Assembly: GCA_021234155.1 (NCBI GenBank)
Contig: JAJEKV010000039.1
Span: forward strand, 1,054,001-1,118,000
DNA length: 64,000 bases
From: Isoetes taiwanensis
Lineage: Eukaryota; Streptophyta; Lycopodiopsida; Isoetales; Isoetaceae
Direction of reading: 5' to 3'
Shown here: positions 30,177 through 59,712 of the stretch, in pieces
Layout of the letters: each line of letters opens with the position of its first letter
Numbering within the stretch: position 1 is the first letter of the stretch
Notes under the pieces: model-generated
What the model was told of the DNA's origin: nothing
Database searches by the model: none
Seen by the model: only the letters and a program-made list of their open reading frames with translations
Translations under genes and position numbers: made by a program

Positions 30177-30199
30177 GTATATATATATATATATATATA
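30177..30199. repeat. (TA)n microsatellite, left border of paralogue segment
   Basis: A short TA tract follows CAAAAACTTG. The sequence to its right, containing CCAGACATCTGACC and GACTTATCAG, is similar to the sequence right of the TA tract ending at 55088. Confidence 0.9.
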
Positions 30200-30794
30200 G
30201 AGGCCTGGGCCTGGTCCAAAGACCAGTACCAGACATCTGACCAAAACCAGGATTTCCAAGTTAGGCCAGACTTATCAGTTCCATGTTTTATAATAAGGAT
30301 AACCTTATAAGGGTTCCATGCAGTCTGATTTTCACACCCCCTTTGGAGAGAACAAAAATTTGAGCAATAACCACATTTAACTATGTTTACTTTTGCTACA
30401 ATGATGTTTTAAAACTGAAAAGACCTTTCTGTCATAACTAGTTACCATAAATAAGCAAAAGGACTGCAAAACAATAAGCAAAACAGTACCACGTATAAAT
30501 CAAAGCAGCTATTTATAACAACGGCCATAGAACTTTGTTTTCAACGTTTAATGTATCAACTGTGGCAAGATTATGCATTCATTGCTTAAAGAGTATTTTT
30601 TAAAAAACCTGAATATACTTCGAGTTTGTTTCTAATGAAATTGACTGTAAAAAGCAGTATTTCCATTTAACCCATCTTTTAAACAAAAGTTTGTTTTCCA
30701 AAAGAACATAATATAGTAGACAGCCATACGAGTTAGAGGTTTTAGACAAATAAAGATGCCTAGTCATGCTAAGACATAAAAGATCTAAAGATAC

Positions 30795-32261
30795 TTAGTT
30801 TAAAGAAGACAAAAATACAGCCTCAACCAGTTCAGCTTCTTGCTTGATCTTGCATTTGTTGCAATCAAGTTCAGGGTAAAGATAAAACCTGAAAATCTTA
30901 TAGACGACTTGCTGCTCAAGCAAATTCATGTCTTTTTTAACTGCTAAAACATTACTGAACCAAAATTGCTTGCTGGCGACACACTGCTGCGAGTGCTTCA
31001 TGCAATTAATAACTTGAGAGTAAGTAGATGAGATCCCGGTTACCTGCAATCCAATCAATCACAAATTAGCCTAAAAGGGTAATCATGAAAGGGATTAGCA
31101 GGTAAGCTATGGAATCACATGGCTAATAGCCCTTCAACTTTGAAACTTAGAAGATATGAATAAATATGATAAGAACCAATCTGTAGAAGTTATAGATTTC
31201 AGTAATATTACCAGATTTGTTTATGGCAGATCTTCCATATCAGAAATATTGTATATTCAAAGCGAACAGAAAAACTTGAAAATATATAAGGGATAGAATA
31301 GACTCCCTGTGTGATATCCAGCCCTTAGGCCTCCATGCATTTTACCATTAATGCAATGTATGCTGGAAAATCCTGGTGCTCGAAGCATTATAACATATTT
31401 ACTCAACTCAAGACAAAGCAAGAACCAAGTTAACATTCCAGTTTTGGTATTACCCCCCCCATTTTTTACATGACCATTTGTTACCGTGTGAGAGAACAAC
31501 AGAACAATCAAATAAACCTGATTGAGTGGTACGCCATCTTCCTCCAGAAATTCGTCCTCAACAGCCGCCTGGTTAATGTTGCTCCTAACACTTGGATATG
31601 TAGGCAAACTGCTCTTTCCAGCGATTACTAAGCGGCAAGCTTCAATACTGGAGCCAGGGCGTTTCCCCAACACTTGCTTTTTGGCAGTATTGATGTCAAT
31701 TCCTGCTTGCCTTGCCATCTCCTCTAGAACAGACTTCTTGATGGAAATACCATCATTCTTACAGTCAATACCCTTTTCCCTTAACAAGCTGATGATATCG
31801 GCCTTAGTGGGCTTAAGATTGCCTGATCCCTCAGTTCTTGTCATTGTTACAAGAAGTATGAGACAAGGGGGAAGCCAAAATGTCAAGCACCGCTTCCTTT
31901 CTTTAGTGTATCACAATGTAAATTTTTCAGCATATGGGCTTTTCCTTATCAATGCCAGATCCTGTCATTAGGTCATTGACCTTCTTTATTTCAGTCGTAT
32001 GACGGTTTGCTAATAAGTGGTGAAGAACCAGGAAAAGGATATGCACGATTTTACTATTTAATGCAAGCATCGGTACATCATCAGAGCCGAATTTTGCAAA
32101 ACCACTAGGTATACTAAGATCCTTAAGTTCAAGCAAGACGAATTTAATCCGTTTCACCAGTGGAGTCAGTAAACGTACCTCATAAGCAGCCTATAGCGGA
32201 CCCTATGATTCCAAAATCCTTCCATATTAGTCCCAACGGCCATCAAAATAGTCTTATCCAT
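30795..32261 (-). CDS. Unrecognised three-exon gene, copy A
   Basis: Exons 32261-32179, 31836-31518 and 31043-30795 join with GT-AG borders and matching phases into 216 residues. The start MDKTILMAVGTNMEGFWNHR has an in-frame TGA two codons upstream. Exon 2 encodes TEGSGNLKPTKADIISLLRE and a helical, charged region ending EEDGVPLNQ. Exon 3 begins VTGISSTYSQ and contains two Cys pairs (NCMKHSQQC and LDCNKC). I do not recognise the family. The TKADIISLLREKG block looks like a short helix-extended-helix DNA-binding motif, but this is only an impression. A diverged paralogue lies at 56.3-57.2 kb with the same exon 2/3 border. A leader exon ending near 32362 is possible. Confidence 0.6.
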
Positions 32262-32299
32262 CCTTCAGTTAAGGCGTTCAGGAATCCAGCCAGATCTTC

Positions 32300-57248: not shown

Positions 57249-57892
57249 GGTCGGAGCCCTAAAGCCCTCGATCCTTTGCTTTTTCTTTTTTTATTAAAGT
57301 ATCCTATTTAGTCCCTTATTCCTTACCTATGTAGTTAGTTTTCCACTTGGAAACCACATTCCTATGTAATCCACTTTACCGGTTACGTTTAAAATCATTT
57401 CCTATAAATGCTCGGGAGTAATATCATACCCCAAATTAGTAGTGTCACTTACTAGATATTGTAGTTTCCATCACTTGTACTGTTGAGCTCGATTCCTCAT
57501 CTCAAACATTCTATGCAACAAAGCCCACACTTTCCCACCGTAGATACCCTTGGGCCTGCTCCCATACCTTTTTCTCATGGGTAAAACAATTTACCATATG
57601 CAAATGTTAAATCCTAATTCCTTTCTCACGTAGTTAAGTTTCTGTATGGAAGCCTCGTTTACATGTAATTTGCCACCACAATTAAATTAAAAAACCTTTC
57701 CCATTTACCATTGGGAATTAAATCCTATCATCAAACAGCTGTATTACGTACCTCATACAGTATTTTTCCCATCCTTGTGCTTTTGCACTCAAAGTCCCTT
57801 ACCATTATTGTAGTTTTCACAACTTGTACTTTTGAGCTTTGTCCTTTGTCCTGTACTGTGTCTTCACTTGGGCATGCTCCCAGCGGATCTTT
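57249..57892. other. No gene recognised
   Basis: Pyrimidine-rich spacer between copy B and the next TA tract. CCCTTGGGCCTGCTCCCATA and CACTTGGGCATGCTCCCAGC, about 325 bases apart, suggest an old internal duplication. Confidence 0.4.
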
Positions 57893-57938
57893 TAAATATA
57901 TATATATATTTATATATATATATATATATATATATATA
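57893..57938. repeat. (TA)n border of cassette copy 2
   Basis: TA tract with one TT interruption, ending exactly at the left end of the second 1.77 kb cassette. Confidence 0.93.
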
Positions 57939-59712
57939 CAAGTGAGTGTACTATAAGGGAGTACACAAATTTTGAGCCATCCAAACTTAAGATTCTCTTA
58001 AGATTCCCCTAGATTCTCAAAGATTATCCCAAATTTTCTCTACATTTCTTAAGATTCTATATAAATTCTCTTAGATTCCTTTAGGTTCTATCCAGATTCC
58101 CCTAGAAAAACACACTTAGTGTAAAAGATTCCCTTAGATTCTTAGGATTCTACAAAGATATCTCGAGATTTCAAACGTTATCACAAGGATCCTCTAAATT
58201 CTTTAGAATTCTATGTAGATTTTCCTAGATTTTGTTAGATTCTATAGAGATTCCCCTAGAATCTTGAAAATTCCATCAAAGATTCCCCTAGATTCTCAAA
58301 GATTTTATGAAGATGCGCTTAGATTCTGCTAGATTCTGAGCCATTCAATGAAGATTCTATAAAGGTTCACTTAGATTCTTGAAGATTCAGGAAAAAATAT
58401 CCTAGATTCTCAAAGATTTAAGGAAGATTCTCTTAAATACTCTTAATCCCATAAATTACTTAAGATTCTCTTAAGATTCAACTAGATTCTCAAAGATTAT
58501 CCCAGATTTTCCAAGATTCTATATAGATTCTCTTAGATTCTATCGAGATTCCCCTACTAAACACACTTATTAATGAAAGATTCCTTAAGATTCCACAAAG
58601 CTTCCCCTAGATTCTTAAGATTCTATAAAGATCCCTCTAGATTTTCGAACTTATCACAAGAAACCTCTAGAGTCTCCAAAATTCTATGTGGATTCTCCTA
58701 AATTTTGTTAGATTCTATATAGATTCCCTTAGATTCTATGTAGATTCCCTTAGATTCTACAGATTTTCAAGGATTCTCAAAGATTTTATGAAGATGCACT
58801 TCGATCCTACTAGATTCTCTATGATTCTCTTGAGATTCCCATAAATTCCCTAATTTTGTTGGGGTTCCCCTAGCCTCCTAAAGATCATCTCAAGATTCCT
58901 CTAGATTTCCCATATTTCTATGTAGATTCTCCTAGATTCCCTTAGATTCTATGAAGATTCTTCTACATTCTCAAAGGTTTCATAAAGATTCCTATAGAAT
59001 CTCAAAGATTCCCTTGCGATTCTCATAGATTCCCAAAGATTCTCTTGAGCTTCCTTTAAATTCTCTAAAATCCTATGGAGATTCCCCTAGATTCTTTTAA
59101 ATTAGATAGATTTCAGAAAATTCTAAGTTTCCAAAAGAAACTTAGTATTCGATCACATTAGCTCCAATCTGCGAGGGAACGATGCCAAAGCACCACTCAT
59201 TGGAAAGTTCTCGTGAGAGGAATCCAATGGTGTGGGTCTCACCTTCATCCGACCCCTCTACTGCAAGTTATCGGCCTTTGAAGCTGATTATAAAAAAGAA
59301 GCTTCCTAGAAAGTCCACCTATTAATGTTGATGCCACCTCATTACCTTTTTATTAAATAAGGGTGCCACCTCACCTCTTTTAATAAAGAAATTGCAATTT
59401 AATAAAGAATTTAATGGTTAGGATTTTTCCTCCCCCTTTTGATCCAACGGTTAAGATTGACTGCACCAAAAAGCACCTTTTAAGGGACCTTCCTTGCATC
59501 TTCCCTTTAAAAAATCAAGGGCCAAGATTTCACACGTGCCCGATCAACGGTTCATGGATGGGGTGCATGGCCCATGCATGGCCCATGCATGCCCCCCATC
59601 AAATCCAAGGGCCATTTAAGTGCCACCTCAAAAATTAGACGGATAGGATTAATCTCTACCCACATTCAACCCCCCATAGGACCCATCAAATAATTGTATA
59701 TATATAAGAGAT
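57939..59712 (+). mobile_element. 1.77 kb TA-flanked cassette, copy 2
   Basis: The same sequence as 43321-45094 with only a handful of differences, such as CTCGTGAGAGG for CTCGACGAGAGG. The right end AATTGTATATATATAAGAG passes into more TA sequence, so both borders are TA, while the outer flanks differ between the copies. This excludes simple extension of a longer duplicated block. Confidence 0.65.

Follow-up and report, generated by a model that had tools for sequence, protein, structure and literature searches.

TA microsatellites join mobile-element modules into an array in Isoetes taiwanensis, two of them probable terminal repeats of telomerase-like retroelements

The window analysed here is a stretch of 64,000 nucleotides from the quillwort Isoetes taiwanensis (C1044:1054001-1118000); the genome searched with its parts comprised 1,658,258,908 bases in 1110 contigs. 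Between 25.4 and 59.7 kb the window holds a chain of modules joined at TA tracts: non-coding elements with fixed ends, here called T elements, a tandem duplication (A1/A2), and two blocks, A and F, whose sequences indicate that they are solitary terminal repeats of two retroelements (Table 1). On balance, we lean towards the view that this array grew as mobile elements inserted, one after another, into TA tracts, with A and F as repeats of telomerase-like retroelements and the T elements as passengers.

Perfect TA runs of at least 12 bp were counted in the window and in order-1 simulations of it. Nine were found, all between 30178 and 57938 (30.2-57.9 kb) and none outside, against a simulated mean of 0.005 and a maximum of 1 in 200. 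An earlier note on this DNA had placed eleven joints between unrelated blocks in TA tracts, from 30 kb onwards. TA-rich sequence was present at all eleven, with a perfect run of the above length at eight (given in Table 1); the remaining three (45070, 51817 and 59697) are short TA stretches within element 3' ends, TTGTATATATATAAGAGA, with no long tract. Two details of that description did not hold: the array begins at about 25429, and the joint at 36801-36829 does not separate unrelated blocks but lies where the two units of a tandem duplication meet.

Table 1. Parts of the TA-jointed array, in window coordinates; "perfect run" means an uninterrupted TA run of at least 12 bp
Feature	Position	Strand	Evidence or remark
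T element, 4.75 kb	25429..30177	-	end motifs: 5' end CAAGTTTTTGTACTAT at 30177, 3' end TTGTATATATATA at 25429
TA tract	30178..30199		perfect run 30178-30199
Block A: solitary long terminal repeat; the retroelement probably Penelope-like	30200..33511	-	conserved ORF at about 31260-31907 (minus); full copies bracket RT on C437
TA tract	33512..33583		perfect run 33521-33574
Block A1, first unit of tandem duplication	33584..36800	no strand	98.8% identical to A2; tandem relatives in L030, L031
TA tract at A1/A2 unit junction	36801..36829		perfect run 36801-36814
Block A2, second tandem unit	36830..39561	no strand	cut at internal TATATAT, intact in A1 at about 36321-36327
(TA)40	39562..39641		perfect run 39562-39641
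Block B: T element	39642..43278	+	5' CAAGTCTTTGTGCTAT; 3' end GTAATTTTATATATATTATGATATA continuing into next TA tract
TA tract	43279..43320		perfect run 43293-43320
Block C: T element, 1774 bp	43321..45094	+	internal repeats of about 10/31 bp, AGATTCCCCT; fixed ends in genome copies
T element 3' end, 5' end not found	51616..51836	+	82-84% identical to C and G 3' ends; motif at 51821
Block D: T element without 5' end	51837..53170	-	similarity to B; no 5' motif
TA-rich joint D/E	53171..53210		perfect run 53171-53188
Block E: T element	53211..54951	-	5' end at 54951
(TA)68	54952..55088		perfect run 54952-55087
Block F: solitary long terminal repeat from a second retroelement of this kind	55089..57892	-	ORF 56555-56926 (minus); two full C528 copies
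TA tract	57893..57938		perfect runs within 57897-57938 (two)
Block G: T element	57939..59711	+	99% identical to C

Six blocks of the window are T elements (25429-30177, B, C, D, E and G), and one further 3' end is present. The ends at 25429 and 30177 would belong to a single element, of which no second copy was seen. T elements run from (TA)n-CAAGT...TTGTATATATATAAnnGA, and the termini common to the other subfamilies, with some variation, are (TA)n-CAAGTnnnTGTAC(T/C)AT at the 5' end and AATTGTATATATATAAnnGA(TA)n at the 3' end. When block C was compared with the genome, 39 of 3779 first-look candidates were scored, so that the counts are lower bounds. At least 43 matches, C and G included, exceeded 1 kb and were no less than 91% identical; 34 of them began with the first base of C, and 41 extended to base 1758 or further. 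Across the window and 20 fetched loci the C-type 5' end occurred 28 times, with a TA run of at least 10 bp directly before CAAGT in 27 and of 4 bp in the other, whereas the 3' end was recognised in 25 copies, all but one of them finishing TTGTATATATATAAGAGA. The 3' tail unit varies from one to three copies (TAAGAGA three times in L011, twice in L012 and L022); an AAGGATA unit is repeated in L015 and L021, and longer tail runs occur in other T subfamilies. No terminal inverted repeat (TIR) beyond CAA/TTG beside the TA runs was found in any of the six T elements tested, the first and last 250 bp giving scores at shuffle level.

The neighbours of block C were compared in 22 copies, one from each of the 20 loci and two from the window, with 3-kb flanks and 231 pairs. 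At least 150 bp were shared in the left flank by five pairs (155-372 bp) and in the right flank by three (up to 1408 bp at 98%, in L024/L026, where the similarity is a T element following C in both). As the left- and right-sharing pairs differ, no pair of the 231 shares both flanks. Of the three blocks in which recurrence with TA joints and different outer neighbours was examined, C therefore behaves as had been proposed. The same element ends beside many different partners also argue against an assembly artefact at TA repeats, which are hard to sequence and assemble. Several joints are short, and the assembly was built with Nanopore long reads and optical maps, according to the part of its description consulted (PMC8566536); we give an artefact very little credence.

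Where T elements have inserted, the TA run lies inside or at the 3' tail of another T element; five complete C copies were found directly fused to an upstream T element at TTGTATATATATA. In three of them (L010, L015 and L028) an apparent remainder of the upstream tail lies beyond C, as judged by eye against the tails of L017 and L021. At two such split runs, in L028 and L015, the net TA gain was 2-4 bp, and a longer, altered stretch was present in L010. Element-free sites, which the earlier note had proposed to look for in another accession or allele, were sought within this genome by joining the flanks of a C copy into one query, with 40 of 779 candidates scored. For the copy in L018, 12 genomic copies among those scored (82-87% identical) cross the junction without C, so the test succeeded for this one insertion; on the left side of the junction the alignments cover no more than 26-35 bases, and they do not give the length of the TA run in these copies. 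For the copy in L012 no element-free site was found among the candidates scored. This second copy is bracketed by a perfect direct repeat of 620 bp (3371-3990 and 5796-6415 on the reverse complement of L012), far longer than usual target duplications.

These results bear on the alternative that recombination between TA tracts, by unequal exchange, circles or break repair, shuffled unrelated blocks. Such exchange does not explain why the ends of C fall on the same base at dozens of unrelated sites, and the element-free related sites and the apparent remainder of the interrupted TA run on the far side in three of five copies also oppose it. Taken together, the element-free sites and the interrupted TA runs speak for insertion and against TA-TA recombination, an explanation already weakened for the T elements. 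In its favour is 33584-39561, a tandem duplication in which 33555-36327 matches 36801-39568 at 98.8% and the two units are joined at TA. A2 breaks off at a TATATAT, where (TA)40 and element B start; in A1 this motif is uncut, and the sequence that follows it there on the right occurs only once in the window. Relatives of A1/A2 in L030 and L031 are tandem too, with units of 3.84 and 3.55 kb and TA at the junction. No coding capacity recognised by Pfam was found in the one open reading frame (ORF) searched in A1/A2, and no DNA similarity to the retroelement was detected, only the surroundings of the TA junction looking alike by eye. Solitary repeats such as A and F can also be made by recombination. 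TA-tract exchange may have shaped the duplication and the solitary repeats, as the earlier note had allowed, but it leaves the fixed ends unexplained, and as an account of the whole array we consider it improbable.

Block A (query 30200-33520) is present on C437 as two copies, 7.8 kb apart, whose ends are almost those of the query (9-3321 and 11-3321), and between them lie an ORF, ORF1, and a decayed reverse transcriptase (RT) with 17 stops. When compared by hand, A-like pairs bracket an antisense RT at six loci (C437, C1066, C1033, C1018 at 43.8 Mb, C1061, and C1018 at 35.3 Mb); near the A-like copies on C739, C834, C42 and C1040 no RT was found among the matches listed. Block F has two whole-length copies (query 1-2804) on C528, 7455 bp apart, and the 2.5 kb read between them contains the N-terminal part of an RT on the minus strand, the same strand as the ORF of F. 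The expected recurrence was thus observed with the same ends for F and nearly so for A, with outer flanks read at one end only (L029).

Next to a C copy, the joint stretch of L028/L032, here M, holds an element whose frames are open. It consists of a left repeat (M 6126-8725), ORF1 of 541 amino acids (aa), an RT of 705 aa and a right repeat (M 13398-15996), the 2.6-kb repeats being 98.2% alike. From the start of its left repeat, this element would be 5'-truncated. Directly after the 3' repeat come (TA)96, a putative solitary repeat and another TA tract; the block in question (M 16190-19047) is probably another solitary repeat, to judge from about 100 bp that are 78% alike. A further one, in L024, lies between TA tracts and adjoins C (ORF match 48%). 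All four solitary repeats seen at both ends (A and F of the window, L024 and M 16190-19047) are flanked by TA tracts, the last two having been assigned to this class by ORF or by the similarity of about 100 bp. At the 3' ends, inspected by eye, GATGT followed by a GGTC- or AGTC-type box lies near the TA tract in four of five repeats, L024 having the GGTC part only. Over 111 aa, the small ORF of block A and its counterpart in the L028/L032 element share 63% identity; the ORF of F resembles the latter by eye only. A reading of the small ORF as SAP-like, also by eye, was dropped, being unsupported by Pfam at E values up to 10. The unit thus measures about 7.3-7.8 kb in the order terminal repeat, ORF1, RT and terminal repeat, with repeats of 2.6-3.3 kb that carry the small ORF. 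Tandem or partly tandem units with repeats resembling pseudo-long terminal repeats (pLTRs) were seen in L028/L032 and L029, and two tandem units are suggested on C1018 at 35.3 Mb. Close to the 5'-truncated retroelement repeat and head to head with it (M 5775-6126) stands the 3' part of a T element on the minus strand, an arrangement that could record one event joining two complementary DNAs (cDNAs).

The identity of the RT was examined by sequence and by structure. A weak RVT_1 match was found in all 17 aligned relatives, and the ratio of nonsynonymous to synonymous substitution rates (dN/dS) was 0.07-0.15 in seven of ten pairs, those with a computable dS. The ten best Foldseek matches of the RT model in the PDB are telomerases, and so are the ten best by Z in VIA (9.9-8.3); as telomerases are the best structural matches, the enzyme of the source element of A and F is telomerase-like and the element itself probably Penelope-like. 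The lack of an obvious relation to a known family, stated in the earlier note, hence does not hold for these two blocks. No Penelope homologue was found by sequence search of the PDB, and no retron- or LTR-type RT was among the 50 VIA-align matches listed, an absence that is no test. Pfam gave no GIY-YIG endonuclease match in the RT or ORF1, and, by hand, none of 121 GIY-YIG matches lay within 10 kb of any of 63 RT matches (150 of 263 GIY-YIG and 63 of 4763 RT candidates scored). The GIY-YIG matches, at least 121 short ORFs of 53-200 aa scattered through the genome, possibly represent another, endonuclease-bearing element family.

Other candidates for this element were rejected. An LTR retrotransposon as the source of A and F found no support, as no RT of Ty1/Ty3 type, integrase or protease was matched by Pfam in the RT, ORF1 or the ORFs of the repeats, and the tRNA primer site TGGTATCAGA was absent from both strands of the window. 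Caulimovirid insertions flanked by TA are known; integration of this kind was discarded, as no such proteins were present among the ORFs searched and the window lacks that primer site. For a hammerhead ribozyme or retrozyme, Rfam gave nothing at gathering score across the window, L029, L030 and L031; a pattern scan gave only unpersuasive matches, and the Rfam matches obtained in evalue mode within 25-60 kb stayed under their gathering scores without exception and in many cases lay on TA tracts. Arrays of TTTAGGG or TTAGGG, as expected at a telomeric junction, were absent from the window and from L001-L049.

Outside these modules, the window contains remains of a Ty1/copia-type retrotransposon at 2495-5947 (+), with gag_pre-integrs and RVT_2, and, at 15518-18918 (-), a run of ORFs of 131-333 aa, one with a weak endonuclease/RT match (Exo_endo_phos_2, E 0.045), perhaps a long interspersed nuclear element (LINE). 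A 1365-bp tandem duplication, 98.6% identical, lies at 48046-50774, away from long TA tracts.

Coding sequence in and beside the T elements was surveyed with 127 of 179 ORFs of at least 95 aa from array loci, after a filter for ORFs rich in Y/I and in F/L/I/R. Ten Pfam families were matched, once each, among them Trehalase, HSP70, PPR and zf-RVT, a retroelement domain, and no transposase was among the ten. At 28400-28920 (+), within the minus-strand T element 25429-30177, frames resemble by eye an EMB8-type alpha/beta-hydrolase, apparently with an intron, and Pfam gave no match there; T elements may capture pieces of host genes. In L019, a 220-aa arginine-rich ORF at 9093-9752 (+) has a weak SASP match and is perhaps the N-terminus of another mobile-element protein; a Helitron was one reading considered for the ORF in L019.

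The lack of a transposase among these ten families counts against a further alternative, in which the T elements are non-autonomous Mutator-like DNA transposons of the SaTar, MuTAnT or TAFT kind, moved by cut-and-paste into TA, and the telomerase-like retroelements use the same sites independently. Both ends of the T copies are sharply fixed, as this explanation would have it, and the genome is rich in Mutator-type transposase matches (at least 150). Published precedents, in the parts consulted, point the same way: TA-flanked modules in uninterrupted arrays are reported for non-autonomous Mutator-like elements in four plants (PMC5907723), and MuTAnT targets TA in Medicago (PMC4486113). However, the six T elements tested have nothing beyond CAA/TTG to set against the 40-250 bp TIRs of guayule SaTars, their 3' tail units vary in number, one C copy lies within a 620-bp direct repeat, and the two measured split-run sites gained 2 and 4 bp of TA and not 9-11 bp. 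The variable tails, the long repeat and the small TA gains favour reverse transcription at a TA site over Mutator-type cut-and-paste, none of them being proof alone, and we regard the Mutator explanation as possible but rather unlikely.

From the anatomy of these elements we infer how repeated insertion into TA tracts could have proceeded. Reverse transcription would start on 3' ends in TA tracts, at nicks or breaks in these palindromic and break-prone runs; there the UA terminus of the RNA would anneal, and the other cDNA end would join a TA tract by microhomology, so that the segment from TA to TA becomes the unit of insertion. The targets would include tracts brought by earlier elements, and modules would thereby accumulate end to end. 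The T elements would be non-coding passengers of the same or a similar RT. In a bolder version, an endonuclease-less, telomerase-like retroelement makes internal TA microsatellites into self-renewing landing pads: it primes on TA ends, may lengthen the tract by repeated copying of a UA template, as telomerase does, and carries the T elements along. This version we consider doubtful and unlikely.

Several observations weigh against insertion by such a retroelement. No T element with an enzyme was found, T elements and the retroelement have no sequence homology, and the apparent gene fragment with an intron in element 25429-30177 would be easier for a DNA transposon, even if an intron-bearing gene between Penelope pLTRs is described in the section consulted of PMC3846280. 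Matches to Mutator-type transposases are plentiful (150 of 1020 first-look candidates were scored and every one matched, hence at least 150), so a Mutator-type driver of T is possible. TA targets mask target-site duplications, the 620-bp repeat is a single case, and two of the five fused C copies (L016 and L019) have no tail remainder recognisable by eye. Recombination between repeats, too, can leave solitary repeats. As regards the RT, its model is of middling confidence (pLDDT 66, pTM 0.56), the Foldseek telomerase matches have low TM-scores of 0.18-0.26 and a root-mean-square deviation of about 20 A, and some telomerases tie with LINE-1 in VIA (8.3).

TA-jointed modular arrays as such are already known, from Mutator-like DNA transposons (SaTar, MuTAnT, TAFT and Micron). 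The earlier note had named rice Micron elements as a precedent for TA targeting; the parallel stands but is wider, as SaTar arrays in guayule, rice, sorghum and citrus have the same modular TA-jointed architecture, in mixed end-to-end arrays of mostly non-coding elements (PMC5907723; for this and the papers below, the sections consulted are meant). Like SaTars, T elements have TA microsatellites on both sides and form modular, uninterrupted arrays; unlike them they lack TIRs, and the coding partner seen in the quillwort arrays is an RT. SaTars are Mutator-like elements of about 0.2-1.9 kb, most with TIRs, and in many families some members have target duplications of 9-10 bp. Unoccupied TA sites are known for them, and their targeting mechanism is left open, with circular intermediates plus recombination, or an unknown 'ancillary system', invoked and TA expansion after insertion mentioned for maize (PMC5907723). 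Micron (rice), TAFT (maize) and MuTAnT (Medicago) share with T the targeting of TA tracts and TA runs on both sides, but are DNA elements with TIRs (PMC5907723, PMC4486113), and MuTAnT has a mudrA-type autonomous partner (PMC4486113).

The closest parallels to the source of A and F are Penelope-like elements deficient in endonuclease, which have been reported from rotifers, Selaginella, pine and spruce (PMC9033089, PMC12477314). Both have a telomerase-like RT, no GIY-YIG found, tandem or partly tandem pLTR-like units and 5' truncation. The rotifer and Selaginella elements are tied to telomeres, whereas those described here lie at internal TA tracts, and the latter differ further in their 2.6-3.3 kb repeats with a small ORF, a separate ORF1 of 541 aa and no hammerhead motif where searched. 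Poseidon of Anolis also combines a Penelope-like RT with tandem copies, and an AT-rich target has been proposed for it, but it carries a GIY-YIG endonuclease and a hammerhead ribozyme (PMC11167929). In the sections of the literature searched, we found no telomerase-like retroelement in the role of a TA-array builder and no Penelope-like element at TA microsatellites or in Isoetes.

Elements that insert into, or carry, TA microsatellites, as first suggested for this array, are thus supported by the fixed ends, independent flanks, element-free sites and split runs, not as one family but as two unrelated classes at the same joints, one of which is a telomerase-like retroelement situated at internal TA tracts. 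The homing of elements to TA microsatellites is an unsolved question, for which a telomerase-like RT at TA joints offers a concrete and testable route; it could also explain the origin of very long TA tracts in plants, and would widen the range of endonuclease-less Penelope-like elements beyond chromosome ends to internal sites. If the landing-pad proposal is true, such arrays would be chromosome-internal chains of modules comparable to the telomeric chains of Athena elements.

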